Shown here: piece by piece, positions 1,668 to 38,085 of the stretch
Layout of the letters: every line of letters starts with the position of its first letter
Numbering within the stretch: position 1 is the first letter of the stretch
Assembly (NCBI GenBank): GCA_021604525.1
Contig: BQJD01000028.1
Span: forward strand, 1 to 47,558
DNA length: 47,558 nt
Reading direction: 5' to 3'
Source: a marine bacterium B5-7
GTDB taxonomy: Bacteria; Pseudomonadota; Gammaproteobacteria; Arenicellales; CAJQKF01
The notes under the pieces: model-generated
Databases searched by the model: none
The model's input: the letters and a program-made list of their open reading frames with translations, nothing else
What the model was told of the DNA's origin: nothing
Program-made: the position numbers and the translations under genes

Positions 1668-2288
1668 TTAACGTACCCTGTTTATCGCTTCCCACTCACG
1701 AGCCAAATGTCTGGCCTCAACTATCTGATCGGGCGTCATTTGTATACTGATAGTCTCTTGCTTCCGTTTTGCGATTAAATCTCCAGATATTGCGGCGAGG
1801 TCTAGCCACTTGTAAGCCTGGACGTAGTCCTTGGGGATACCTTCACCTTTACAGTACATGACGCCGAGTTTGAACTGAGCACGAATCTCACCCTGTTCGG
1901 CCGCAAGCCCATACCACTTCACAGCTTCGGCATTATCTTTGGGGACGCCTATACCTTCAGCGTACATGACACCCAGGTTGAACTGGGCGAGTTCATCTCC
2001 CTGTTCGGCCGCAAGGCGGAACCACTTCAGTGCCTCAGTATTATCTTCGTGAACACCATCACCATATCGGTACATGATGCCCAGGTTGGTTTGTGCAATT
2101 GCATTTCCTCGTTCAGCCATTGGTTTCCATATTTCCCTGGCATTGACGAAGTCACCTCTGATGTAAGCATCGAGCGGGTCCTGAAATGTCTGCGCGATCA
2201 CACTGTTCGACACTGATAGCAGTACGACCAGTGCGAATCTGTTAATAAGTCTCTCTCCGTAAGTTAATTTCATCTGTATCTTCAACAT
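1668..2288 (-). CDS. Secreted Sel1-repeat protein
   Basis: The protein has 206 residues. An N-terminal hydrophobic stretch (RFALVVLLSVSNSVIAQ) reads as a signal peptide. It is followed by about four Sel1/TPR-like repeats of 36 residues with the typical A..NLG.MY..G.G...D..EA.KW...AA pattern, roughly residues 58-175. Sel1 repeats form helical solenoids that bind other proteins; no enzyme domain is present. The start may be ATG 2288 or the internal ATG at 2273. It is likely a periplasmic adaptor, but its partner is unknown. The neighbouring amino-acid-synthesis gene on the same strand ends 26 bases upstream (2314), so the two may be co-transcribed. Confidence 0.85.
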   Translation of the reverse strand: MLKIQMKLTYGERLINRFALVVLLSVSNSVIAQTFQDPLDAYIRGDFVNAREIWKPMAERGNAIAQTNLGIMYRYGDGVHEDNTEALKWFRLAAEQGDELAQFNLGVMYAEGIGVPKDNAEAVKWYGLAAEQGEIRAQFKLGVMYCKGEGIPKDYVQAYKWLDLAAISGDLIAKRKQETISIQMTPDQIVEARHLAREWEAINRVR

Positions 2289-16922: not shown

Positions 16923-17612
16923 TTAGTTAAGACTGATCCGAAGCGCAGATGCGGCGGCAATAGGCGCAAGGACAAGTGCCAGCATCAGTATGGCGGCGAG
17001 TACATAGAATTGTCCTGCGGTATCGAGTCCGAACTGGGCGGTCTTCAGCAGGTTGGCGCCGAATATCAGCACCGGGATGTACAGCGGCAGCACCAGCAGG
17101 GTCAACAGGACACCGCCGCGACGAATACCGGCTGTCAGGGCGACACCGATTGCACCGATCAGGCTCAGGCTGGGTGTGCCAATAAGCAGACTTAGCAGCA
17201 GGGTCGGCAACAAGGCAGGATCAAGGTTAAGTAACAGCGCTATGACAGGTGTTACCGCAATCAGTGGTATACCGGTTAATAGCCAATGCACCAGAATCTT
17301 GGCCAGCACCAGTATCGACAATGGATGTGGCGCAAGGGCGAGTTGCTCAAGTGTTCCATCCTCAAAGTCGGGCTTGAATAGTCCATCCAACCCTAGCAAT
17401 GTGGCAAGCAGGGCAGCAACCCATATAACACCCGGTGCAATTTCGCGAAGCTGCTCCGGGTTCGAGCCAACACCGAATGGAAAAAGTGACACGACGATTA
17501 CGAAGAACAATAACGGATTGACCAGGTCGCTACGGTTATAAAAGGCGAGGCGAAAGTCGCGTCTGACTATGGCGACAAATGCACTGCGAAGTGGTGGAGC
17601 CGTAGTGCTCAT
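16923..17612 (-). CDS. ccmB: Heme exporter protein CcmB
   Basis: The protein has 229 residues with six hydrophobic helices. Sequence such as VRRDFRLAFYNRSDLVNPLLFFVIVVSLFPFGVG and EDGTLEQLALAPHPLSILVLAKILVHW is typical of CcmB. With CcmA and CcmC it forms the membrane machine that loads heme onto CcmE for cytochrome c maturation. The ATG at 17612 overlaps the ccmA stop by 4 bases (ATGA), so the two are translationally coupled. An upstream in-frame extension is ignored. ccmC does not follow; downstream lies a convergent MAPEG gene. Confidence 0.95.
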   Translation of the reverse strand: MSTTAPPLRSAFVAIVRRDFRLAFYNRSDLVNPLLFFVIVVSLFPFGVGSNPEQLREIAPGVIWVAALLATLLGLDGLFKPDFEDGTLEQLALAPHPLSILVLAKILVHWLLTGIPLIAVTPVIALLLNLDPALLPTLLLSLLIGTPSLSLIGAIGVALTAGIRRGGVLLTLLVLPLYIPVLIFGANLLKTAQFGLDTAGQFYVLAAILMLALVLAPIAAASALRISLN

Positions 17613-23269: not shown

Positions 23270-23517
23270 ACAGAATCCTTTTAAAAAGTTAGCGGGTGGA
23301 GTGTCATTGTGCAACACATAGGAATTGAATCAAGACAAGATCTGTTTCGATCGACACATAGTTAATGCAGGACATCTTTTGAGTACTTTCATAACGTATG
23401 CATACAGGCATATCAATAATTCAATTGTAACGGGATTGCAGGAATCAATCTCTTTTATCAATTAATCACTGACGAAAAGGGATGAGTCCCTCAAACCATT
23501 TAGCATCAGGAGCACCC

Positions 23518-24405
23518 ATGACACATATCATTGACGGCAAGGCATTCGCCACACACTTACGTGAACAACTGACAACAAGTGTGTCGACGCTGGTCAAGCA
23601 GGGAATTACACCAGGTTTAGCCGTTGTCCTGGTTGGCGACGACCCGGCAAGTCAGGTGTATGTGCGCAATAAAGGTAAACAAACTGTCGCAGCAGGCATG
23701 CAGTCGTTTGAACACCGATTGGCAGATACCACGAGTCAGTCAGAATTGCTTGAACTCATCGCGAAATTAAACGCCGACCCGGATGTTAATGGCATCCTGG
23801 TCCAACTTCCATTACCTGAACAAATCGAGGAATCGGCGGTGATCAATGCGGTCGATCCAGCCAAGGATGTCGACGGCTTTCATTTGCACAACGTTGGTCT
23901 TTTGAATACGGGAAGTCCGGGCCTGGTGCCGTGTACGCCGCTCGGTTGCATCATGCTGTTGCGAGATCATCTCGGCGACCTGAGCGGTGCCCGTGCAGTT
24001 GTTGTCGGTCGGTCGAATATTGTCGGCAAGCCAATGGCATCCTTACTGCTAAAAGAGAACTGTACCGTAACCATCGCGCATTCACGTACTCGCGATCTTG
24101 CAGATGAATGCCGCAATGCAGATATCCTGGTGGCTGCGGTGGGGCGCCCGGAAATGATCACTGGTGATTGGGTTAAACCCGGTGCAACAGTCATCGATGT
24201 CGGTATCAACCGGATAGAAGGCGATAACGGCAAGTCCAGGCTTGTTGGCGATGTGGAATTTGAAACTGCATCTAAAGTGGCCGGGGCCATCACACCGGTA
24301 CCCGGTGGAGTAGGTCCAATGACCATTGCCTGTTTGCTTCGCAACACCGTGGAAGCAACCTGTCGTCAGAACGGTATTGATCCCGGCACAATTTTACCCG
24401 ACTAA
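23518..24405 (+). CDS. folD: Methylenetetrahydrofolate dehydrogenase/cyclohydrolase FolD
   Basis: The 295-residue length is typical. Motifs: [14 protein letters not shown] with the catalytic Lys, [22 protein letters not shown] for NADP binding and [16 protein letters not shown] near the end. FolD interconverts 5,10-methylene-, methenyl- and 10-formyl-tetrahydrofolate in the cytoplasm. ATG 23518 is preferred because AGGAG lies at the right distance; a longer frame from 23482 lacks this. It is convergent with phoU at 20 bases. Formyl-folate chemistry joins it to the nearby formate dehydrogenase in one-carbon metabolism, although the two lie in separate transcripts. Confidence 0.97.
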
Positions 24406-24425
24406 AAATTAATCAGTAATATGGA

Positions 24426-25175
24426 TCAGCCAAGACTTCCTGCGCGAATCTCGGCGGCCAGGATTTCAACACTTTGATGACGAACGTTGACGCCCTTGAC
24501 CATAAAAATCACCTGTCGACTGATACTCTTGGCATGACCGCCAATCCGGTCGAGTGAGCGCAATCCCAGTACTACCTGAACCGCGTCGCCGATACGTCGG
24601 GGATCTTCGAGAACATAGGTTGTCAGACTACGTATCGATGTATCGAACTGCTCGTTAAGATCCCGGTCCATCTCGATGACTTCAAGTGCCAGCTCGATAT
24701 CCATGCGTTTGAACGATTGGATACTCATCTCAACCATGGCAATAACGTACTTGGCCATTCGCGGGATACCACTTAGCAGGCGCTTGTCCGGATCAGAACT
24801 GTCTTCCTTGAACAGAAACAGGGCAAGTTCAGCTATGCCGTTTGCCTGATCGCCGATTCGTTCCAGGAACGATCCGATTCGGTTAACGGTTAACAGGATT
24901 CGCAAATCTTTCGCCATGGGTGCGCGTAGTGCGAGTACCCGATGTATTTCCTCATCAATCGCGATATCCAGCTGATCAATTCTGTTTTCACGATTTACGA
25001 CGCTGCGAGCTCGTTCAAGGCTGCCCTTTTTTATTGCTTTTCCTGCTTCTCGCACCTGTTCAGTTGCCAATTCGCCCATCTCCCCGACCAACTTTATCAA
25101 TGACTGCAACTCCTCGTCGAAGCGGTGGAAAATATGGCCCTCGGAATTTGAACGAGCGGTGCTTTTACTATTCAT
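24426..25175 (-). CDS. phoU: Phosphate-specific transport system regulator PhoU
   Basis: The protein has 249 residues, slightly longer than the usual 235-240. It is a helical PhoU double repeat; ELVGEMGELATEQVREAGKAI and VNRIGSFLERIGDQANGIAE are typical metal-binding-helix segments. PhoU represses PhoR signalling when phosphate is plentiful and needs the Pst transporter for this. It lies last in the pst operon, 23 bases after pstB. Confidence 0.95.
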   Translation of the reverse strand: MNSKSTARSNSEGHIFHRFDEELQSLIKLVGEMGELATEQVREAGKAIKKGSLERARSVVNRENRIDQLDIAIDEEIHRVLALRAPMAKDLRILLTVNRIGSFLERIGDQANGIAELALFLFKEDSSDPDKRLLSGIPRMAKYVIAMVEMSIQSFKRMDIELALEVIEMDRDLNEQFDTSIRSLTTYVLEDPRRIGDAVQVVLGLRSLDRIGGHAKSISRQVIFMVKGVNVRHQSVEILAAEIRAGSLG

Positions 25176-25198
25176 GACAGCAACTTACCTTGTATGGG

Positions 25199-26086
25199 TT
25201 AACCAAAACGTCCGGTGATGTACGCTTCTGTCAACGGGTGTTTGGGGTTAGTGAAAATATCATTGGTTTCACCGACTTCAACCAGGTTACCCAGGTGAAA
25301 ATACGCAGTACGTTGTGACACGCGTGCCGCTTGTTGCATCGAGTGGGTAACTATGGCGATGGTGTAGTTCTGGCGTAATTCATCAATCAATTCTTCAACC
25401 CGTGCCGTGGCAATGGGATCAAGTGCAGAGCACGGTTCATCCATCAGGATGACTTCAGGTGACACAGCAATTGCACGAGCAATGCACAGTCGTTGTTGTT
25501 GTCCACCGGAGAGCCCGGTACCGGGTTTGGTCAGTCGGTCCTTCACCTCATCCCACAATCCCGCTTTAGCCAGAGAGGTTTCGACAATTTCATTCAGCTC
25601 GGATCTGGAACGCGCCAGACCGTGGATTTTTGGTCCATAGGCAATATTGTCGTATATCGATTTCGGGAAGGGATTGGGTTTTTGAAATACCATGCCAACA
25701 CGCGCGCGTAACAGCACAGCATCCATGCTTTTACTATAGATGTTTTCATCCTGAAGGGTTATCTCACCTTCGACTCGACAGATATCGATGGTGTCGTTCA
25801 TTCGGTTCAGGCAGCGTAGAAAAGTCGATTTCCCGCAGCCTGATGGCCCAATCATCGATATCACCTCGTTTAGGCCTATGTCGAGTGATACGTTGTTGAT
25901 CGCCTGCTTTTCATCATAGAACACGTTGACACTGCGGGCGCTCATCCGGGGGTTGGGAACCGCAATGTTACCGACCGTCGCATAAGGTGATGCAGTATTT
26001 TCACTGCCTTCCTGAACCCTTGAACCGATCCAGCCGGGCTGGTGTGTTACAGGGTTTTCAATTGCATAAATATTCGCTTTGGACAT
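25199..26086 (-). CDS. pstB: Phosphate ABC transporter ATP-binding protein PstB
   Basis: The 295-residue protein energises phosphate uptake through PstCA. Walker A is [15 protein letters not shown], the signature is [14 protein letters not shown] and Walker B is [16 protein letters not shown] 26086 with GAGG upstream is chosen; a longer frame reaches back into pstA. The first 50 residues before the ATPase domain are longer than usual and have no recognised role. It lies between pstA and phoU in the operon. Confidence 0.96.
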
Positions 26087-26111
26087 GGCGTAAACCTCGG
26101 TGGTCGCTGGC

Positions 26112-27398
26112 TTACCAGCGTTTCTCAAATCGTTTGCGCAGAATGACAGCGAGCGCATTCATGGCAACAAGGAATCCCAGCAAAACCATGATGGCTGCTG
26201 AGGTGCGTTCGAGGAAGGCACGTTCTGGACTATCTGCCCACAGAAAAATTTGTACAGGCAGTACGGTGGATGGGTCCAGTGGGCTGGTAGGAATATCAAC
26301 AATAAATGCAACCATGCCGATCATTAACAGCGGCGCGGACTCGCCCAACGCCTGGGCCATTCCGATGATTGTGCCGGTCATCATTCCGGGCATCGCCTGA
26401 GGCAGAACATGATGAAATACAGTCTGCACTTTGGATGCACCGACACCAAGGGCCGCTTCACGAATAGAAAGGGGAACGGACTTCAACGATGCACGACTGG
26501 CGATGATGATGGTGGGCAGTGTCATCAACGTCAGCACCAGTCCGCCAACCAGGGGTGCGGATCGAGGCATGCCAAAAAAGTTGAGAAAAACAGCAAGGCC
26601 GAGCAGACCAAAGACGATAGAAGGCACGGCAGCAAGGTTGTTGATATTGACTTCAATAAGATCGGTAAATTGATTTTTTGCTGCGAACTCTTCGAGATAA
26701 ATTGCCGCCGCAACGCCAATGGGAAAGGCGAGTGACAGGGTGACCAACAAGGTGAATAGCGAACCCATGACGGCTCCGCCAATTCCCGCCTGCTCCGGCT
26801 CACGACTGTCGCCTGCTGTCAGGAATGTCCAGCTAAACGATTTTCGAACTGAATCACTGGCTTCAAGCTGTTCTATGAAGGCAATGCTTTGATTGGATAC
26901 GCGTCGGTCCGACTCAGGTGCGTCACGATGAATATGACCTTTGATCAACATATCGATCTCATCATCGGCAACCAGCCATAGGGTTAACCGTGTCCCGATA
27001 AGACCTGGATTATCAAGCACCGTGTCGCGAAGAGAGTAAGCCACACCGTTGCTAACCAGATTGTATAAATCGCGGCGGGCACTGCGACTGGTTGCATCGG
27101 GGAAGCGTTCCTTGAGGGCGGCTTTGTAGAGTTTGGCGAAGTCGGCCTTACCGATGACTTGAGGATCATTGGTATGGCCGGGATCAATAATTGCCGGATC
27201 ATAAAAGATCTCGAGCTCAATCTGAGTCTGTAAAAAGGCGGTATATCCCTTGCTGAAAATGTCAGCGAACAGAATCAGTACAAAACTGACACCAAAGAAA
27301 ATGGCCATTAATCCAAGTCGACGGAAACGTCGCTCGGACGCATAACGTTTGTTGAGCGATTCCTTGACGATTCGAGTGCTGTCAGCGATCTCAGTCAT
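26112..27398 (-). CDS. pstA: Phosphate ABC transporter permease PstA
   Basis: The protein has 428 residues. The inner-membrane permease domain (about residues 190-425) contains the coupling sequence [25 protein letters not shown]. An N-terminal helix ([21 protein letters not shown]) and a roughly 130-residue soluble, presumably periplasmic domain precede it, a feature of larger gammaproteobacterial PstA proteins. ATG 27398 overlaps the pstC stop by 8 bases, so translation is coupled. It forms the phosphate channel together with PstC. Confidence 0.95.
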
Positions 27399-28770
27399 AT
27401 TGTTCACGATATTTGCGCACGATGTGAAGGGCGATAACGTTAAGAACCAGGGTGACCAGAAAGAGAGATATCCCGAGTGCAAATGCGGCCAGGGTTTTTG
27501 GGCTGTCAAATTCCTGATCGCCCACTAAAAGCGTGACGATTTGAACAGTTACCGTGGTGACACTATCGAGTGGATTGATTGTCAGATTTGCTGCGAGACC
27601 TGCCGCCATGACGACAATCATGGTCTCGCCGATGGCGCGCGATGCAGCTAACAGCACCCCACCTGCTATACCGGGTAAAGCAGCCGGTATGACAACCTGA
27701 CGTATGGTCTCAGAATGCGTTGCACCAATGCCTAAAGATGCGTCCCGTAGCGACTGTGGGACTGCGTTTATAACATCGTCAGACAGTGATGAAACGAATG
27801 GGATTATCATTACTCCCATCACAAGACCGGCTGCCAGCGCGCTTTCCGAAGATACCTCAAGCCCTAACAAGCCACCTGAATCACGTATGAAAGGCGCTAC
27901 GGTCAACGCTGCAAAGAAGCCATAAACAACGGTCGGTATACCCGCAAGTATTTCCAGTATGGGTTTGGCGATTGCGCGAAGCCTGGCACTTGCATACTCA
28001 GATAGATAAATGGCGGACATCAAACCAATCGGAACTGCTACCAGTAGTGCGATAAATGAAATAAGCAGTGTTCCGGTAAGCAACGGGATAGCACCGAAGG
28101 CGCCGGATGAGCCAACCTGGTCCGTACGAATTGCAGTTTGCGGACTCCACTCGGTACCGAACAGGAATTGGGTTATCGGTATTTGATCAAAAAATCGTAT
28201 GGCCTCGAACAGCACCGATAAAACGATTCCGATGGTGGTCAAAATTGCAATTGATGAACAGATAACCAGCAAACCGCGAATAATGTTTTCAACGGTATTG
28301 CGGGCACGAAAATCAGGTGAGATTAATCGTAAGGCCATGATCCCACCGAAGATGGCGATTGCCAGTACGATAACAACAAGAGCCATGCGACTGAGCGACT
28401 TGAGTTCCTTGTAGTGCTTTGCCGCGGCAGCAATCCCGAGAGATATCTCACCGGATGTGATTCGACCTTCTGCGTAGTTTCGTATGTCGTTTATGACAAG
28501 ACCAATTCTTTGCTCGTTAAGGTCGGTTATTGCAGACGGCAAGTCAGCAATAACAATATTGGTAATGATTGTGCTTTGCAGGGCCAGCCACAAAACAAGT
28601 ACTGCCAGGGCTGGAATGCTGCACCAGATCGCAGTCCATGCACCATAGTAATGGGGCAGGGAATGAAGGTGATTTGAAGATGCGCTGACCGTAAGGGCAC
28701 GTTTGCGACCATAGTGGTACGCAATGGTCGTTAGTCCCAGAATTGCCAGTACAACGAAATAGACAGGCAT
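27391..28770 (-). CDS. pstC: Phosphate ABC transporter permease PstC
   Basis: The protein has 459 residues from ATG 28770; a TTG seven codons earlier is less likely. Several N-terminal helices and a soluble loop precede the permease domain, with the coupling motif DASLGIGATHSETIRQVVIPAALPG. It is the second membrane subunit of the high-affinity phosphate importer. A perfect 8-base hairpin lies between pstS and pstC, which could lower downstream expression relative to pstS. Confidence 0.95.
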   Translation of the reverse strand: MPVYFVVLAILGLTTIAYHYGRKRALTVSASSNHLHSLPHYYGAWTAIWCSIPALAVLVLWLALQSTIITNIVIADLPSAITDLNEQRIGLVINDIRNYAEGRITSGEISLGIAAAAKHYKELKSLSRMALVVIVLAIAIFGGIMALRLISPDFRARNTVENIIRGLLVICSSIAILTTIGIVLSVLFEAIRFFDQIPITQFLFGTEWSPQTAIRTDQVGSSGAFGAIPLLTGTLLISFIALLVAVPIGLMSAIYLSEYASARLRAIAKPILEILAGIPTVVYGFFAALTVAPFIRDSGGLLGLEVSSESALAAGLVMGVMIIPFVSSLSDDVINAVPQSLRDASLGIGATHSETIRQVVIPAALPGIAGGVLLAASRAIGETMIVVMAAGLAANLTINPLDSVTTVTVQIVTLLVGDQEFDSPKTLAAFALGISLFLVTLVLNVIALHIVRKYREQYD

Positions 28771-28792
28771 GATAAATATCTCGTTAAGCAAC

Positions 28793-28821
28793 GACGGTCG
28801 ATTGCTATGAAACCGACCGTC
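28793..28821 (-). terminator. Intercistronic hairpin between pstS and pstC
   Basis: GACGGTCG (28793-28800) and CGACCGTC (28814-28821) form a perfect 8-base stem with a 13-base loop. No T-tract follows, so it is more likely a processing or attenuation element that keeps pstS message more abundant than pstCAB than a full terminator. This interpretation is inferred from other pst operons. Confidence 0.45.
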
Positions 28822-28867
28822 ATGGCATTTCAGCGTTCACAGCTTCACAATTTGCTGAATCTTGATG

Positions 28868-29911
28868 CTATAAACCCTTAAGCGGTGTCAGGTTGGCTGC
28901 ATCTGCGGCAAACCTGGCACGCTCATCAGTTGGCATCGGAATTAGCCCTTTATCCGCCAGATAGCCTTCATCGCCCCATGCTTTTTCACTGGTAAATTCT
29001 GCTAGATAGCCTTCGATACCAGGAACCGACCCGATGTGGGCCTTCTTCACGTAGAAGTACAAAGCACGTGAGACAGGGTAGGATCCATCCGAGATGTTTT
29101 CGAATTCCGGCTCTACACCATTGATCACCGAACCCTGGACCTTGTCCGAATTTTGGTCGAGGAAGCTGAAGCCGAAAACACCGAATGCATCGGGGTTGGC
29201 ATCCAGTTTCTGGATGATGAGGTTGTCGTTCTCGCCCGCTTCGATGTAGGCACCGTCTTCGCGAACCGTGTGACAGGCAGCTTTGTAGCCTAGATTATCG
29301 GACTTCTTCATATCCTTGATCATGTCAAAGGATTTACAACCGCCTTCAAGAGCCAGTTCAGCGAATGCATCACGGGTACCGGATGTTGGTGGCGGGCCAA
29401 GAACTTCGATCCTGATGGCAGGAAGATCCGGATTTACATCGTTCCAGGTTGTGTGCGGATTGGTAACGAGATTTCCAGAGCCGTTCGGATCAGGTACCTC
29501 CTTGGCTAGTGCCAGAAAGATGTCTCTAAGGCTAAGCTCCATACGTTCGGCAGATTTGGAGTTCGCCAGAACAATACCGTCGTAACCGATTTGAATCTCG
29601 ATAATCTCATCAACACCGTTACTGGCGCACTTGTCGATTTCCGACTGTTTGATACGGCGCGAGGAATTGGTGATATCAGGATGTTCGATACCTACGCCGG
29701 CACAGAACAGCTTCAGACCGCCACCGGAGCCGGTCGACTCGATCTTCGGTGTTTTCATGTCGCTGGTTTTACCGAAATATTCCGCAACGACCGTGGCAAA
29801 AGGATAAACCGTAGACGAACCGACAATCGACACATAGTCTCTGGACGCGGCCTGTGTCGTCGTGCTGCTGATGGCCAGCGCCACCGCGAGTGCAATAGGT
29901 TTGTTAAGCAT
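28868..29911 (-). CDS. pstS: Phosphate-binding periplasmic protein PstS
   Basis: The protein has 347 residues from ATG 29911, chosen because GGAG lies 5-8 bases upstream. The signal peptide (PIALAVALAISSTTTQA) is followed by the phosphate-binding start YVSIVGSSTVYPFATVVAEYFG and the PPTSGTRDAF loop. It captures phosphate in the periplasm for PstCAB. A Pho box lies about 70 bases upstream of the start, so expression is under PhoB control. Confidence 0.96.
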   Translation of the reverse strand: MLNKPIALAVALAISSTTTQAASRDYVSIVGSSTVYPFATVVAEYFGKTSDMKTPKIESTGSGGGLKLFCAGVGIEHPDITNSSRRIKQSEIDKCASNGVDEIIEIQIGYDGIVLANSKSAERMELSLRDIFLALAKEVPDPNGSGNLVTNPHTTWNDVNPDLPAIRIEVLGPPPTSGTRDAFAELALEGGCKSFDMIKDMKKSDNLGYKAACHTVREDGAYIEAGENDNLIIQKLDANPDAFGVFGFSFLDQNSDKVQGSVINGVEPEFENISDGSYPVSRALYFYVKKAHIGSVPGIEGYLAEFTSEKAWGDEGYLADKGLIPMPTDERARFAADAANLTPLKGL

Positions 29912-29958
29912 AATTAGCTCCATAAGTTTCAAGATGGAGCGAATTATGGGAACTGATT

Positions 29959-29998
29959 GTTACAGGGATGTTGGTTTAATGTGACAGGAAAATGACAG
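29959..29998 (-). promoter_or_regulatory. Pho box array upstream of pstS
   Basis: Read on the minus strand, CTGTCAT-TTTC-CTGTCAC (29998-29981) matches the 7-4-7 Pho box almost exactly. A further unit, CTGTAAC (29965-29959), lies in the same 11-base register two units on. This is where PhoB would bind to activate the pst operon. Confidence 0.9.
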
Positions 29999-30157
29999 CA
30001 GGTTAGTCAGTCAACATGTGCGTCTTATGCGCAAAAAATCATACGTTCTGTTAGTGCAACATCTGCACCTGACCTAAAGGGATTCGCTTAACCAGCAATC
30101 ATAATAACGAATCTTATGGTCAGATGAGTCAGGACAATCGTGATGTGTTTTAAACTG

Positions 30158-31510
30158 CTATTTGATTATCGATTGTGCGGAATCGACTTCAACAAAGTCG
30201 TCCAGGGGAACAATCTCGGCACGATCTTTTGGGAAGATACAGGTGAATGTGCTTCCATGGCCGGGTTCGCTATCAATTTTAAGTCTTGCACCATGACGAA
30301 TCAGCACATGCTTGACAATGGCAAGACCGAGGCCGGTACCCCCTTTGTCGCGGGATCGACCCACATCAACACGGTAAAATCGTTCAGTCAGTCGCGGTAT
30401 ATGATGCGCTTCGATTCCCACCCCGGTATCCATCACCGAGAAACAGGGTTCATCACCACTTAACCACCAGTGCAAGTTGATGCGCCCGTTTTCAGGTGTA
30501 TAGCGAACCGCATTGTAAACAAGATTGGAGAAGGCGCTTTCGATCTCCGAAGCATTCGCGTTAAGACCAAGAGTCGCAGTAACCTCAGCGCTTATGTCAT
30601 GACCGGGATCGCCGCTTACCGAGTCGGCACCGTCTACGATGCGCTCAATCATCTGTGCGATATTCACAATTTCCTGGCCTTCAGATCGATCGCGTGTTTC
30701 CAGTCTCGATAACGTTAACAGATCTTCCACTATCCCTTTCAACCGTGTTGATTGACGATACACTTGTGTGAGAATCGGCTTCCATTGTTCAAGATCATCG
30801 TCATCATCCGCATCCAGAATGGTTTCCATATAGCCATGAACAACGGTTAGCGGCGTGCGCAATTCATGTGAGGCGTTGGCAACAAAGTCGCGGCGTACAT
30901 TTTCAAGCTGATTAAGTCGGGTAATGTCACGTGCCTGTATCAGATGTTTACCTTTGCCATATGGCACCACGCGGATTTCAAGAGAGATGCTGTAGTCGAC
31001 CGGCGCCGGGATCTGCAAGGGACGTGTGTAATCGCCACCCTCGATATATGCATGAAACACGAGGTCGTCGATATAGTCATGGATTCCCAACGCCTGCTCA
31101 CGATTCTTGCCGATGCCAAGAAGCTGGCTTGCAACCGAGTTTGCCCATTCCACCATCCAGTTTTCATCAAGCACTACGGTCGCATCGGGTAATGCGTGCG
31201 TGGACTCCTGAAAACCGCCCAGTATGTTGCGTAGTCTTTTCTTACGGGATTTGCCGCGGTTGCGGATCTCGGTGGTCTCGCTGGTTAACGGATCCCAAAT
31301 GCCAACTCGATAAGGCGCAGGTTCCCGTTTGGGGTGGGCGATCCAGTTTCTGAACCGATAGAGCTGGAAAAACAACCAGGAGATATATGTCGCAAGGCCA
31401 ACGGCGACTGGAATAGCGCCGGTATTGGTGACGATCCCGACGACGACTAATATCAGTGCGATCAGTGCGACAAGAGCAATTTCGACAAGAGTATTATCAG
31501 GCTGCGGCAT
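30158..31510 (-). CDS. phoR: Phosphate regulon sensor kinase PhoR
   Basis: The protein has 450 residues. Two N-terminal membrane helices ([33 protein letters not shown]) and a PAS-like sensor domain ([19 protein letters not shown]) precede the kinase core: the phosphorylated His215 in ASHELRTPL, the N box, DTGVGI and [10 protein letters not shown]. It phosphorylates PhoB when phosphate is scarce. ATG 31510 overlaps the phoB stop by 14 bases. It lies downstream of phoB, in the same orientation as the pst operon. Confidence 0.95.
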
Positions 31511-32204
31511 GGGGGTTGGGGCCGATGGAGAACCGATAGCCAGCCCCCCGTACTGTTTGCAACAGCGAGTCGGCACCAAAAGGTTCCAGCGCTTTGCGCA
31601 AGCGCCTTATATGTACATCGACCGTGCGCTCTTCGATATAGACATTGGTACCCCAAACCCGATCCAGAAGTCGCGACCTGGAGTAAACCTTATCCTGATG
31701 TGTCATGAAAAAGTGCAACAAACGGAATTCTGTCGGCCCCATATCAATGGGTGCATCGTTATAGCAAACGCGATGAGAGGATGGGTCGAGTGTCAGGTTT
31801 TCCGCTGATACAGCTTCTTCGGTTGCATGAGGTGCGACACGGCGGAGAACGGCCTTTATGCGCGCTATCATCTCGCGCGGTGAGAACGGTTTGCTGATGT
31901 AGTCCTCGGCGCCGGAGTCCAGTCCGCGTACCTTATCGTCCTCGTCACCCCGAGCGGTGAGCATAATAACGGGAATATCACGCGTCACTTTGTCGGCCTT
32001 GAGTGATCGGGTCAGCTCAATGCCACTGGCGCCCGGTAACATCCAGTCCATCAGGATCAAATCGGGGGGTTCATTTAACAGCAGGGAGCGGGCCAGTTCA
32101 GCGTCTCCAGCCTCAAGAACTTCGAATCCGGAGTTGCTGAGCGCCAGTGTAACCATCTGGCGAATTGCGTGTTCGTCTTCAACTATTAGGACTTTGGTTG
32201 CCAT
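31497..32204 (-). CDS. phoB: Phosphate regulon response regulator PhoB
   Basis: The protein has 235 residues. The receiver domain ([14 protein letters not shown], phosphoacceptor Asp in [13 protein letters not shown], Lys in [11 protein letters not shown]) is followed by an OmpR-type winged helix ([30 protein letters not shown]). It activates the pst operon and itself by binding Pho boxes. ATG 32204 is correct: a TTG at 32267 would place the start on top of the Pho box. Confidence 0.97.
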
Positions 32205-32249
32205 GATATTCGTCGTTCGATTTGAAGACGTGAATTCAATCGAAGCGGT

Positions 32250-32267
32250 ATTACAGTTTGATGACAA
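32250..32267 (-). promoter_or_regulatory. Pho box upstream of phoB
   Basis: Read on the minus strand: TTGTCAT-CAAA-CTGTAAT, a 7-4-7 Pho box 46 bases before the phoB ATG. It indicates positive autoregulation of phoBR. Confidence 0.8.
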
Positions 32268-32342
32268 ACGGCAGTATGGAAAACGCGATGGAGGGAGTCA
32301 GACTATGAGATTGCCGATAACCGGTGGCGTACGGCAAGTCCC

Positions 32343-35300
32343 TTAGTTTCCTTCACCGAGTACGATTTTGTTCGGGTTATAGCCGAGTATCCTCAGGTTT
32401 TCCTTGGCAACGCTGTCGCCTTGTACCGCTGCTCGTTTGAACCATTCAACGGCCTGCTTCATGTCCCCTTCAACGCCCTGTCCATTGGCGTACATTACGC
32501 CGAGATTGGTTTGCGCCCCGGAATAGCCCTGTTCCGCTGACCGAAAATACCATTTGGCCGCTTCGGAATAGTCGGGATCGACGATAAGTCCGTCCTCATA
32601 ATATGAACCAAGGTCGGCCTGGGCCCATGCCGCGCCCTGCTTGGCGGCAAGACGAATGGGTTCGAGTGCAGCCAGGAACCATTTGCGCGCCGCGGCACGG
32701 TTTGGTTCAACACCACGACCATTCTGGTACATCACCGCCAAACGGAACTGTGCGCGCGCATTGCCGTTTTCGGCCAGAGGTCGCAGGAAGCTATAAGCCT
32801 CAGCATAGTTGCCGCGATAGTAAGCGGAGATACCGGCCTGCAAGCTCATTTCTGCCTGACTGCTTGCGGCATTTTGAGCCGCCTGCTGGCTGCGTTCAGC
32901 GTTCTGAAGTGCAACCTTTTCCTCATTCGCCAGGCGGCGACGGGTTTCGATTTGTTCACGAACCACCGGAATATCCTGATTGGCTGGATCGACAGCCGCT
33001 GCGGTAGTCAGATTTCGGCCGGCAAGATCGAAGTCGTTGGTGGCCAGGGCCTGACGTGCCTGACTGACAAATTGTGATGCAATCGATTCGATACCGGCAT
33101 TGGCGGCCACATTGCCTGGATCGATTTTGAGAATTTCACGATAGAAAAACAGCGCGTTATCCAAAGGTGGCTCGACCATTTTTCCTGAATCGAAACTCGA
33201 TGTTGCGTTAGCTAAAAGTGATCGCAATGTTTCGACTTTCTGCTGTTCGGCCTGCTGACGTTCAGCCTCAGCCTGCGCTTCGCGTTGTGCCGCTTGCGCT
33301 TCTTCCTGAGCCTTGCGTCGAGCCGCTTCCGCCTCGAGTTCACGATTCAGGCGAATCTGTGCGATCTCGCTTCTTACCCGGGATATGTCGCTATTTGCAT
33401 CGTCAATACTGATGACTTTGGCGATTTCCGTCTCAGCCGTATCAAGGTCACCCTGTTGAAGCGCGCTATCCGCGCGTTCGATGAGTTGAGTGGTAATGTT
33501 CCGGATACCTTCAAGAGCTTCGGCGTTTTCAGGATCCATATTCAGGATTTCACGAAAACTCGCTAATGCGTTGGCGTTCTCCGGTGTTGTTAGCTGACCG
33601 TTTCCGAGGTGCGTATGTGCCTCCATGAAGTATGGTTCAAGACGGCGTTCCAATGCGTCGAGTTTGCGCAGTTCGGTGAATCGTTGCGTATCTGTGGGTG
33701 CCGTGATCTCGGAAGCAGATTCGAGTACAACTGTGGGCTCTGATTGAGCGGTGGTAACTGTTTGTTCTGTTTTTGTGCCAGGTTGGATGTCCGCCCGAAT
33801 ATCTTTCGGAACCACATTAATTTGCGGCAGGGCATCGTTCTGTGTTGTGCGGTTTTGTCCACTCTGATCATTATCAAGCCACAGATATGCACCCAGGAGT
33901 GCAAGCAAAATGACTCCAACCCACAGAATAGGATGACCGAGTAGCCCGACGATAACATGACCTCGACGCACCGTATCGATCTCGGCATCATCGTCAAACC
34001 AGTCTGCCTTGCCATGCCGATCATTCCGTTCGAGATCGTTATGAAGCGGGGTATCTTCTGGGGGTGGCGGCGATAAGGGTTGTTCGGGTGTTGTTACCGG
34101 TGCCTTTGTAGCTGGTGCTTTTAATATAGGCGCCTGCGATACGGGATCATTGTTTTTAAGGGTGACCGAAGGCGTTGTTTTAACAATGGGTGTTTTCACC
34201 GGCGGTTGGGCAACGGTGCTCAATGTCGACAGAGAATCGATACTTGAGGACCTGTTTTCCTGTGGTAAATTTCGCCCCTTGTTGTGAAATAGATTAGCTT
34301 TGGGCTTAGTGCGGGATGTTGACCCGGTTGCATTCTCGACCGACTTCATGGCTTGAGTCGATGCCGAAGACGTCCATTGCGATGTCGATTTCCCTGGTAC
34401 ATCCGCAGATTCGGGTTTGTTATGACGAACAGTCGGGATTTTTGCAGATTCTTTCCTGGTGTTAATTGTTGTTGAGGTACTCGAATCAAGCATTTCCAGG
34501 GCTGATTCTGCAGATGCCGGTCGATCGTCTGGTTGTGGCGACAGCATCCAGCGAATTACCTGCAACAGTTCAGGACGGTATTGCTCCTGTAGCGGCGCTA
34601 ATTGTTCGTCTAATGGATCAACACGTCCGGTACTGACCGCACCACTACGGCGAGCTGCGTGAACAGGGGGTTGTCCAGTCATGCTATGTAGCAGGACGGC
34701 AGCAAGCGAATATAAATCGCTCGCCGGAAGCATTTCAGCCTCGGAGCGGATTCGCTCGATTGGCAGATACAGGTACTCCGGTTTATGGGGCTCCGTATGA
34801 AAGGATGGACCGACACTGTTGAAGCCGATCATGATGGCATCGCCATCGCCGTCCAGCAGGATCGAGTCGGACTGAATGCCAAGGTGGAGCAGATTGGAAC
34901 GATGTGGAGCAATGAGAAAGCTGAGACAGCTTTTTAGCCAGCTTTCGATATTTGCGCCGGGAACCCGTTTGCCGCTTTCAAGAACATCTTTCAATGTGCA
35001 ACGATAATCGAAAACTGACACATAATATTCCGTGTCGTTCTGTTCGATGGTTGCTACAACACGTCCCTTGGCATTATATCTGGACAATGTTTGAGCCAGA
35101 CGTTTGAAACGAGTCAATCCGTATTCGAATTCGTTGCTGACGGTTTCGTCGCGGAGCATGACCGAGACATTGTCGAGATCCCGAACACTGATATCTTCGG
35201 GGAAGTATTCCTGAATGATTAATGATCGACGGTTATCGGAATCTGACGCCGTGTAGGCATAGCCGCTGAAGCTGCCACATACCAGTTTGCCGATAACGAG

Positions 35301-35453
35301 ATCATCGATACGCGATCCGCCATTTAACGGGCGTGATGAATATTCAGCAACACCAACCGCGTCGATGGGTCGATCGTTCGGGGTACTGTCTGCTTGTTTA
35401 TCGGTACGGTTATCGTCCAATGGTCTCGTTCCGCGAAACTTCTGGTGTTTCAA
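32343..35453 (-). CDS. Membrane pseudokinase with coiled coil and Sel1 repeats
   Basis: The protein has 1036 residues. Residues about 50-325 have a protein-kinase fold, but the key residues are replaced: the ATP-binding Lys of the VAIKEY strand is Gln81 (LIIQEYFPED), HRDxKxxN reads HLGIQSDS (190-197), and DFG reads GFN (210-212). It is therefore almost certainly catalytically dead. A Pro/Ser/Thr-rich linker leads to a membrane helix near 499-527. A helical, TPR-like part with an AEAARRKAQEEAQAAQREA coiled coil and four or so Sel1 repeats (about 870-1020) follow. The start is TTG 35453 or further in; a stop lies in frame just upstream. It lies upstream of phoB on the same strand, with 138 bases between. 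Confidence 0.88.
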   Translation of the reverse strand: MKHQKFRGTRPLDDNRTDKQADSTPNDRPIDAVGVAEYSSRPLNGGSRIDDLVIGKLVCGSFSGYAYTASDSDNRRSLIIQEYFPEDISVRDLDNVSVMLRDETVSNEFEYGLTRFKRLAQTLSRYNAKGRVVATIEQNDTEYYVSVFDYRCTLKDVLESGKRVPGANIESWLKSCLSFLIAPHRSNLLHLGIQSDSILLDGDGDAIMIGFNSVGPSFHTEPHKPEYLYLPIERIRSEAEMLPASDLYSLAAVLLHSMTGQPPVHAARRSGAVSTGRVDPLDEQLAPLQEQYRPELLQVIRWMLSPQPDDRPASAESALEMLDSSTSTTINTRKESAKIPTVRHNKPESADVPGKSTSQWTSSASTQAMKSVENATGSTSRTKPKANLFHNKGRNLPQENRSSSIDSLSTLSTVAQPPVKTPIVKTTPSVTLKNNDPVSQAPILKAPATKAPVTTPEQPLSPPPPEDTPLHNDLERNDRHGKADWFDDDAEIDTVRRGHVIVGLLGHPILWVGVILLALLGAYLWLDNDQSGQNRTTQNDALPQINVVPKDIRADIQPGTKTEQTVTTAQSEPTVVLESASEITAPTDTQRFTELRKLDALERRLEPYFMEAHTHLGNGQLTTPENANALASFREILNMDPENAEALEGIRNITTQLIERADSALQQGDLDTAETEIAKVISIDDANSDISRVRSEIAQIRLNRELEAEAARRKAQEEAQAAQREAQAEAERQQAEQQKVETLRSLLANATSSFDSGKMVEPPLDNALFFYREILKIDPGNVAANAGIESIASQFVSQARQALATNDFDLAGRNLTTAAAVDPANQDIPVVREQIETRRRLANEEKVALQNAERSQQAAQNAASSQAEMSLQAGISAYYRGNYAEAYSFLRPLAENGNARAQFRLAVMYQNGRGVEPNRAAARKWFLAALEPIRLAAKQGAAWAQADLGSYYEDGLIVDPDYSEAAKWYFRSAEQGYSGAQTNLGVMYANGQGVEGDMKQAVEWFKRAAVQGDSVAKENLRILGYNPNKIVLGEGN

Positions 35454-35835: not shown

Positions 35836-37014
35836 ATGAAAAGAAAAATCCTTTCTGCGTCGGCACGAATTCAGAACGTTCAGACGCCGATTATCCCCGT
35901 TATTGGGGAGATGATACGTACCCATCCCGGCACAATTTCACTGGGGCAGGGCGTGGTTTACTACGATCCGCCACCGGGTGTCGCCGAATATGCGGCTGCT
36001 GCCATGGCTGATCCCGTCAATCACCGCTATCAACCGGTCGAAGGCATCGATGCCTTACGCGCTGTGCTTGTGGATAAACTCAATCGTGAGAATAAAATTG
36101 ACTGTGCCGATTCCACGGTTGTGGTAACTGCAGGCAGTAATATGGGATTTTTCAATGCCATATTGGCGATATGTGATGTCGGAGATGAGGTCATCCTCTT
36201 GACCCCGTGGTATTTCAACCACGAAATGGCAATCAGAATCGCCGGCTGCCAACCGATGGGCGTTGCGACCGATGCAGATTTCCAGCCCGACATCGCATCA
36301 ATCGAGGCGAAAATAACAAACAAGACACGGGCAATCGTAACCATATCCCCCAATAACCCCACCGGTGCAGTCTACACGCCGGACATACTCGATGCCGTGA
36401 ATGCGTTATGCGCAGAGCGCGGTATTTACCACATCAGCGACGAAGCCTACGAATATTTTGTCTATGGTGACGTAGCTCACCACTCGCCAGCGTCTCGAAA
36501 AGCAACAGAAGACCACACCATCTCGCTATTTTCGCTCAGTAAAAGCTACTCTCTCGCCAGTTGGCGAATCGGCTACATGGTGATTCCCGATCACCTCGCC
36601 GAATCAGTACGCAAAATTCAGGACACCAATGTCATCTGTCCCCCGGTTATCAGTCAGTACGCCGCGCTGCACGCGCTGAAATCCGGCTATGAATACTGCC
36701 GACCAATGATCAAGCGCATTGCAGATGTGCGCCAACATCTGTATCAAGCCCTTGAGGACGTACCAGGAATTGCGGCCAACCACGCAGATGGCGCCTTTTA
36801 TGTCTTTCTTGAAATTCCCGGTGATAATAGAATTGACATCGAGATTGTTAGCGAATTGGTGAAGGATTTCGGCGTCGCTGCCATACCGGGCAGCGCATTT
36901 GGGATCGAATCGGGTACTTACCTGCGGGTATCCTACGGCGCGTTGGAACCCGACGCGGTGAAGCGCGGAATTGACTGCCTCTGTGACGGCCTTCGTAGCA
37001 TAGTTACTCGCTAG
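35836..37014 (+). CDS. PLP-dependent class I/II aminotransferase
   Basis: The protein has 392 residues. The cofactor Lys236 sits in SLSKSYSLASWRIGYM. NPTGAVY and SDEAYEYFVYG are the usual PLP-contacting loops, and YLRVSYGA near the end carries the Arg that binds the substrate carboxylate. It transfers an amino group between an amino acid and a 2-oxo acid; aspartate-type or aromatic preference cannot be decided by eye. The ribosome site is weak, but the start fits the family. It is not part of an obvious operon; the tRNA-Ser follows at 147 bases. Confidence 0.92.
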   Translation: MKRKILSASARIQNVQTPIIPVIGEMIRTHPGTISLGQGVVYYDPPPGVAEYAAAAMADPVNHRYQPVEGIDALRAVLVDKLNRENKIDCADSTVVVTAGSNMGFFNAILAICDVGDEVILLTPWYFNHEMAIRIAGCQPMGVATDADFQPDIASIEAKITNKTRAIVTISPNNPTGAVYTPDILDAVNALCAERGIYHISDEAYEYFVYGDVAHHSPASRKATEDHTISLFSLSKSYSLASWRIGYMVIPDHLAESVRKIQDTNVICPPVISQYAALHALKSGYEYCRPMIKRIADVRQHLYQALEDVPGIAANHADGAFYVFLEIPGDNRIDIEIVSELVKDFGVAAIPGSAFGIESGTYLRVSYGALEPDAVKRGIDCLCDGLRSIVTR

Positions 37015-37540: not shown

Positions 37541-38085
37541 CCCCCCGCCTTTAGGCGGCGGATGATAATCTTGTACGGATGCAAGATTATAAACGCGGCA
37601 GCCACACGGTATGGGACTGTAAGTATCATTTGGTGTGGACGACAAAATACCGATATCAGGTGCTTGGTGGAGACGTAGGGCTTCGCTGCAGGGAGCTACT
37701 GCGAGAGATTTCAATCAGCAAGGAAATGATTATCTATGCGGGATCGATTAACCGAGATCATGTGCATATGTTGATAGGAGTTCCTCCACAGTTATCGGTA
37801 TCGAGGGCAGTGCAGTATTTGAAGGGAAAGAGTTCGCACAAATTGTTAAGCGAATTCAAGCAATTGAAGAAACGCTACTGGGGCCAGCATTTATGGGCAC
37901 GAGGATATTGGGTGGCGACGAGCGGAAACGTAACTGACGAGGTGTGGAAGGAGTACATTGAGAACCAGAAACCTCCCGAGCCGGATGACAATTTCACCGT
38001 GGTATGACGACAGTCGGCCGAATGGCCGACCGATCCGGCTTTCAGCCGTAACAGGAAGCCACCGGCTTTAGCCGGTGGAGTATTC
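37541..38085 (+). mobile_element. IS200/IS605-type insertion sequence (tnpA only)
   Basis: The transposase gene is flanked by subterminal hairpins: CCGCC-TTTA-GGCGG (37545-37558) on the left and CCACCGGC-TTTA-GCCGGTGG (38059-38078) on the right, both with the same TTTA loop. Such single-strand hairpins are what IS200-family transposases recognise. Exact ends are uncertain; the right end may be near TATTCAC at 38081. No tnpB is present. It lies about 100 bases after the repeat with the tRNA tail. Confidence 0.75.
37579..38007 (+). CDS. tnpA: IS200/IS605 family Y1 transposase TnpA
   Basis: The 142-residue length is typical. The metal-binding HUH motif is seen as HVHML, and YHLVWTTKYRYQVL is the usual N-terminal strand. 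The catalytic tyrosine is probably the one in KEYIENQ near the C-terminus. The protein cuts and joins single-stranded DNA at the hairpin ends during replication. It appears intact, so the element may still be active. Confidence 0.92.
   Translation: MQDYKRGSHTVWDCKYHLVWTTKYRYQVLGGDVGLRCRELLREISISKEMIIYAGSINRDHVHMLIGVPPQLSVSRAVQYLKGKSSHKLLSEFKQLKKRYWGQHLWARGYWVATSGNVTDEVWKEYIENQKPPEPDDNFTVV

Follow-up and report, generated by a model that had tools for sequence, protein, structure and literature searches.

Layout of the gene and its protein

We analysed a stretch of 47,558 nucleotides from the marine gammaproteobacterium B5-7 (contig BQJD01000028.1 of assembly GCA_021604525.1), hereafter called the window. 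Its reverse strand carries a gene for a large pseudokinase in which a kinase-like domain, a linker, a predicted membrane helix, a TPR-like or coiled-coil region and Sel1 repeats follow one another (Table 1). In the direction of transcription the gene precedes phoB, and 138 bp separate its stop codon from the phoB ATG. The true start codon is probably the TTG at position 35420 (residue 12 of the listed frame), which would give a protein of 1025 amino acids, because the homologues in two genomes (G001 and G003; G denotes genomes and L loci) also begin with a TTG, at the codon corresponding to residue 12, and have an in-frame stop just upstream.

Table 1. Features of the pseudokinase gene, its protein and the adjoining genes (positions in the window; residues of the listed frame)
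Feature	Position	Strand	Remarks
Pseudokinase gene as listed	32343..35453	-	1036 codons from TTG; first 11 probably untranslated
Kinase-like domain, PpkA-type	34479..35342	-	Residues 38-325; Pfam Pkinase; 5hnv E 6e-23; 14-sequence profile against 5hnv E 4e-59
Gln81 instead of β3 (VAIK) lysine	35211..35213	-	Alignment to PpkA and family
Leu119 instead of αC glutamate (FxxEAR)	35097..35099	-	Family alignment
HLG (190-192) instead of HRD	34878..34886	-	G192 at Asp position; alignment to PpkA and family
GFN (210-212) instead of DFG	34818..34826	-	Gly210 at DFG Asp; alignment to PpkA and family
Variable linker	33969..34478	-	Residues 326-495
Single predicted membrane helix	33900..33956	-	Residues ~500-518; hydropathy
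TPR-like/coiled-coil region	32856..33698	-	Residues 586-866; putatively periplasmic
Sel1 repeats, best conserved region	32346..32855	-	Residues 867-1036; putatively periplasmic
Pho-box-like site, 2 mismatches	32250..32267	-	45 bp before phoB ATG, after pseudokinase stop
phoB from its ATG (32204)	31497..32204	-	NCBIfam TIGR02154; separate unit outside the family's wider conserved neighbourhood
Divergent pyridoxal phosphate (PLP) aminotransferase (PRK05957-type)	35836..37014	+	Neighbour conserved in f1 and f3

The Pkinase model of Pfam matched residues 134-319 above its gathering score (34.9 bits against a cut-off of 31.7). The solved structure nearest to the kinase-like part (query residues 1-344) was that of PpkA of Pseudomonas aeruginosa (PDB 5hnv), which aligned to residues 32-323. 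When alignments of the family and of its intact relatives were compared, homology to the Hanks-type (PpkA-like) fold extended over the whole bilobal domain, with an hhalign probability of 100 over 286 columns. Sel1 repeats were detected in three stretches (PF08238, 86.3 bits), and one membrane helix was predicted from hydropathy, which agrees with the transmembrane protein proposed by the initial annotation. A stand-alone Sel1 protein of 206 amino acids is encoded in the same window (1668-2288) and is 44% identical to the C-terminus of the pseudokinase (residues 864-1024).

Loss of catalytic residues across the family

The initial annotation held that the Lys, the HRD Asp and the DFG Asp are all replaced. 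The alignments confirmed this: Q81, G192 and G210 stand where an active PpkA or Ser/Thr kinase has its β3 Lys, HRD Asp and DFG Asp, and the αC Glu is gone as well. The catalytic-loop Asn (now Ser) is likewise lost, together with the other four residues, in the branch to which the window protein belongs. The glycine loop of the window protein is degenerate, with the last glycine alone still in line with the family.

Homologues were sought in 60 relatives and, in a second search, in 109 genomes of the order (Arenicellales). Long homologues came from three taxonomic families, f1 (the window's own), f2 and f3, and more divergent ones from f4, f5, f7 and f12. Matches reaching 331 bits or more came from 38 of the 109 genomes, all of them in f1, f2 or f3; outside the order, the best match among 369 genomes of the class reached 309 bits. 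For the residue counts in these three families, two genomes whose genes are cut by contig ends (G002 and G089) were added, making 40. The β3 Lys was absent from all 38 genomes in which its column is visible (Gln in 37, Glu in G087); L012/L042 of G002 and L169 of G089 end at the contig edge before this column. The DFG Asp was replaced by Gly in all 40 genomes. At the position of the HRD Asp, f1 has Gly (4 of 4 genomes) and f3 has Glu in 22, Gln in two and Asp in one (G087) of its 25 genomes. The Asp is kept in f2 (11 of 11). Five more divergent pseudokinases from f4, f5, f7 and f12 have all lost the Lys; L034 (f12) retains both the HRD Asp and the DFG Asp, and L035 (f4) retains the HRD Asp. As for incomplete sequences, L055 is split over two frames, L165 (G072) is cut by a contig end, and a second partial match in L123 was omitted from the tree and the count. 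In G108 the pseudokinase occurs on two contigs (L167 and L178) with equal score, which reflects a recent duplication or an assembly duplicate.

The retention of the HRD Asp throughout f2 would accord with a kinase-like domain that has gained a different catalytic activity, for which precedents exist in the pseudokinase field. This is improbable, since the branch of the window protein has lost all five residues and has a degenerate glycine loop, and since the residue at the HRD position varies between families.

The Lys, catalytic Asp, Asn and DFG Asp were intact in all 28 kinases from outside the order, taken as the best match from each of the 28 top-scoring genomes there. Intact kinases also occur inside the order (L007, L032, L037, L038, L069, L071, L072, L163 with two, and L168). 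The two at L163 (G076) are PpkA-like and lie on opposite strands, facing each other about 4.6 kb apart. No intact homologue was seen in the setting of the pseudokinase: L069, an intact transmembrane kinase with Sel1, falls on another branch of the tree and in another neighbourhood. The gene (L069:7014-9299) belongs to G009, a genome of this order that contains a divergent pseudokinase (L062) as well. A scan of the viral collection found no relative, and a scan of genome contigs gave two weak relatives, one matching Sel1 only and the other an intact kinase.

An intact PpkA-like kinase is encoded beside rph and rdgB in the genome of the window (L068), and a second match is present in many pseudokinase genomes. 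The pseudokinase could pair with an active Hanks-type kinase of its own cell, such as the one beside rph, and act on it allosterically. We regard this as unlikely, because the rph-side kinase and the pseudokinase are unlinked and because no second match to the family profile was found at E 1e-30 in the draft genomes G033 and G087 (95% and 92% complete). In G087 the pseudokinase is the sole Pkinase match over the cut-off, and the one further match in G033 is partial (a 258-amino-acid protein covering profile positions 1-141). A canonical-kinase partner does not seem to be general to the family.

Phylogeny and a possible order of loss

A tree of 74 rows united all 38 pseudokinase rows from the order in a single clade (100/99), which excluded the intact kinases. 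Within the clade, f1 and f3 were grouped at 100/98 and f2 at 92/94. The tree leaves out G071, G072, G087, G089, G092, G093 and G096, which were fetched later, and carries long-branch warnings for L030 with L035 and for L033 with L034. An early loss of the Lys, followed by a later loss of the αC Glu and the HRD Asp in the branch of f1 and f3, fits this tree; G087, the f3 genome with Asp at the HRD position, was outside it. The β3 Lys is gone in every row of the pseudokinase clade with the column visible, and the DFG Asp remains in L034 alone. The living members may record the order in which the residues were lost, that is, the β3 Lys, then the DFG Asp, and then, in f1 and f3, both the αC Glu and the HRD Asp. 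This order is provisional because L034 and similar rows sit on long branches.

Selection, architecture and topology

Purifying selection acts on the kinase-like domain in f2 and f3. The ratio of nonsynonymous to synonymous substitution rates (dN/dS) was calculated for four pairs, two from f3 and two from f2 that share one member. It was 0.081-0.145 for the kinase-like domain, 0.329-0.479 for the linker and 0.049-0.128 for Sel1. The identity of the window protein to its homologues in G001 and G003 was 70% and 61% in the domain, 31% and 19% in the linker, and 81% and 67% in Sel1. Averaged over pairs from f1-f3, identity was highest in Sel1 (0.55), followed by the kinase-like domain (0.41) and the linker (0.21).

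That the gene is a pseudogene or a kinase in decay, as the lost catalytic residues and the one broken homologue frame (L055) could suggest, is hardly credible: open frames of about 850-1050 amino acids are found across many genomes, the domain dN/dS is 0.08-0.15 in f2 and f3, and the same replacement residues recur across families. We rejected the pseudogene reading on the basis of the f2 and f3 pairs.

Pkinase and Sel1 were both present in all 23 pseudokinases scanned with Pfam. In a scan of 21 intact relatives (L069 plus 20 that come from outside the order), Pkinase was found in all 21 and Sel1 in four; some of the others carry WD40 or PEGA. The initial annotation had stated that the fold and the coil/TPR and Sel1 parts remain, and the shared domains of the 23 pseudokinases and the selection on the domain in f2 and f3 bear this out at the level of sequence. 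Behind the kinase-like domain, 25 of 27 pseudokinases have a hydrophobic segment; the exceptions are the broken L055 and L060, in which no segment reached the threshold. The flank on the N-side of the helix is the more positive one in 23 of the 25 pseudokinases with a predicted helix. From this we infer that the kinase-like domain is cytoplasmic and that the TPR, coil and Sel1 regions are periplasmic.

Comparison with known kinases and pseudokinases

PpkA of P. aeruginosa (5hnv) is homologous to the window protein from end to end of the kinase domain. It is listed among the kinases having a membrane region and a periplasmic domain (PMC13147305), and is a kinase of the type VI secretion system (T6SS) with a C-terminal vWA domain (PMC13147305, PMC1262709). 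In contrast to PpkA, the window protein lacks the catalytic residues, and vWA was absent from its Pfam matches at E up to 1. The window genome gave no match to FHA or to VipB (PF05943), the T6SS family searched, for which the Escherichia coli control was positive. A relay through T6SS or FHA was rejected, as neither VipB nor FHA was matched in this genome.

PknS of Xanthomonas citri has an N-terminal cytoplasmic kinase domain, one transmembrane segment and periplasmic TPRs, and its truncated forms failed to complement (PMC13147305). This layout resembles that of the window protein, for which the sides of the membrane are predicted. PknS phosphorylates itself and a sigma factor; the residues for these reactions are missing from the window protein, which carries Sel1.

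EssB/YukC and MviN (ActPs3) contain membrane-linked pseudokinase domains with structural or recruiting, non-catalytic roles (PMC12599244). EssB/YukC differs in being a secretion component of Firmicutes, and the YukC/EssB Pfam family was unmatched in the window protein (E up to 1) and in 23 members of the family. MviN, a membrane protein that acts in peptidoglycan synthesis, contains its pseudokinase as a part and uses phosphorylation to recruit FhaA; the window genome, by contrast, gave no match to FHA.

Seven bacterial families are described as wholly or largely pseudokinase (PMC12599244). One of them, DLHK, is proteobacterial, and its P. aeruginosa member keeps HRD and has GFG in a table of this source, as does the f2 branch here. 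DLHK proteins have no transmembrane segment, keep the HRD Asp, have helicase/nuclease partners, often with helicase/DNA2 domains, and read AVLT at the Lys position, whereas the present family has a predicted transmembrane segment, Sel1 and Gln; the window protein has a predicted helix, has lost the HRD Asp and gave no helicase match. The GLW family has GLW for HRD and Leu or Trp for the β3 Lys, where the window protein has HLG and Gln; the transmembrane segment after the domain agrees with the one predicted here. CP1 proteins have no transmembrane segment and a linked COG3899 ATPase, and the window protein has a predicted helix and no ATPase domain. The DYD family, of actinobacteria and firmicutes, has Arg for the β3 Lys and a DYD motif, where the window protein has Gln and GFN. 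Judged by these motif and architecture descriptions, the window protein fits none of GLW, CP1, DYD and DLHK. The main text of PMC12599244 mentions neither 'Sel1' nor 'PpkA', and no Sel1 pseudokinase of this kind was found in the literature searched, most subscription papers being beyond its reach.

Proposed role

The evidence from sequence consists of the family-wide loss of catalytic residues, the conserved architecture and the purifying selection in f2 and f3. We favour, with modest confidence, a single-pass, receptor-like protein of the inner membrane that would descend from a PpkA-type transmembrane Ser/Thr kinase, would have lost phosphotransfer early in this order and would work without it. 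In the branch of the window protein the residues for binding nucleotide and metal are gone, and the domain and repeats are conserved; the likeliest role, and a plausible one, would be that of a transmembrane switch or docking platform. The periplasmic repeats would bind an envelope protein or a cell-wall component; through this binding the cytoplasmic domain would change its conformation or oligomeric state and would then dock or release a protein partner. More tentatively, and with slightly less than even confidence, an undescribed family of transmembrane pseudokinases may relay periplasmic signals from the Sel1/TPR region to the cytoplasmic kinase-like domain without phosphotransfer. The initial annotation had argued for a scaffold or allosteric sensor. 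A conserved dead kinase fits a non-catalytic scaffold or switch, and the sensor part of that proposal stays conjectural.

Several observations weigh against this receptor-like, non-catalytic protein. A single-sequence structure prediction gave a predicted local distance difference test score (pLDDT) of only 38.6, so that the fold assignment rests on homology. The f2 family keeps the HRD Asp and mostly the αC Glu, which leaves room for residual catalysis there. Forcing f1, f2 and f3 into one clade was 4.46 log units worse, and the approximately unbiased (AU) test neither supported this grouping nor rejected it (p-AU 0.156). Synonymous changes in the kinase-like domain of f1 were saturated (window against G001), and the dN/dS value was not used; for f1 the evidence is the higher identity of the domain than of the linker given above. 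The two exceptions in flank charge are the window protein itself and L043. Finally, no partner gene was conserved across the whole family when the neighbourhoods of f1-f5, f7 and f12 were compared.

Few bacterial pseudokinases have a known role. The family combines a shared architecture with intact outgroups and with branches that have lost the residues to different degrees, and thereby offers a testbed for the passage from a receptor kinase to a non-catalytic switch. It could also show which features of the envelope are sensed by bacterial Sel1 repeats.

Linkage to phoB

The adjacency to phoB, which the initial annotation pointed out, was followed in a survey of the neighbours of homologues. 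Both phoB and phoR lie downstream of the pseudokinase gene in the three genomes of the window's genus. In G003, which belongs to the same family and to another genus, a convergent folD lies 124 bp after the pseudokinase gene (L043:1461-5319). It is 75.5% identical to the folD of the window, which lies beyond phoU. The adjacency of the pseudokinase and folD in G003 indicates that the pho-pst block follows the gene in the window's genus only, among the genomes seen. In the window, the whole phoB-phoU block stands between these two genes (23482-35453).

A match to pstC was absent up to E 1e-30 from G003 (f1) and from G005, G033 and G043 (f3), a threshold that a more divergent pstC could escape. 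It was unmatched in G002 also, where the contig stops within pstS. In G004, G015, G054 and, with a weaker match, G032 (f2), pstC is on a contig other than that of the pseudokinase.

The gap between the two genes contains a Pho-box-like site (Table 1), found with the Pho-box consensus. The chance of a site with at most two mismatches in 138 bp on one strand was 0.0005 under a simple model of base composition. The site was found again in G002; G001 had no site up to three mismatches at phoB, and the aligned place has four by eye. The best site of the window, with one mismatch, lies before pstS (29981-29998). At three mismatches the whole window has seven sites against 4.5 expected, no more than by chance. 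Another site with two mismatches lies away from the pho genes (17231-17248) and may be due to chance.

A component of the Pho regulon that tunes PhoR/PhoB by an envelope signal could be proposed from the place of the gene next to phoB-phoR in each of the three genomes of the genus, and the model of the regulator ExoR matches the Sel1 region below its threshold. Such a role is very improbable: pstC is undetected or unlinked in several genomes with the family, phoB is preceded by a Pho-box-like site of its own, and the gene adjoins folD in G003. As a clue to function the Pho linkage was set aside, since it is confined to one genus, phoB has a site of its own and the family occurs in genomes without a detected or linked pstC. 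The adjacency appears to be a local accident, and the role of the pseudokinase is presumably independent of the Pho regulon.

Other neighbours

The divergent PLP aminotransferase is paired with the pseudokinase in all 25 loci of f1 and f3 with the flank present (24 of 29 genomes; the flank is missing in L042, L052, L161 and L169, and G098 is outside the count). The pairing persists though identity between the kinase-like domains of these two families is just ~30%. No orthologue of the aminotransferase was matched at E 1e-60 in six f2 genomes, and thus it is not a universal partner. A match was absent at this threshold from G002 too, where the contig ends at the pseudokinase. At L056, the one f2 locus annotated, the neighbours are D-amino acid dehydrogenase, succinate-semialdehyde dehydrogenase and phosphotransacetylase, and they differ again in the f4, f5, f7 and f12 loci viewed. 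Farther along the window, an open reading frame of 142 amino acids (37579-38007) presumably encodes an IS200-type transposase.

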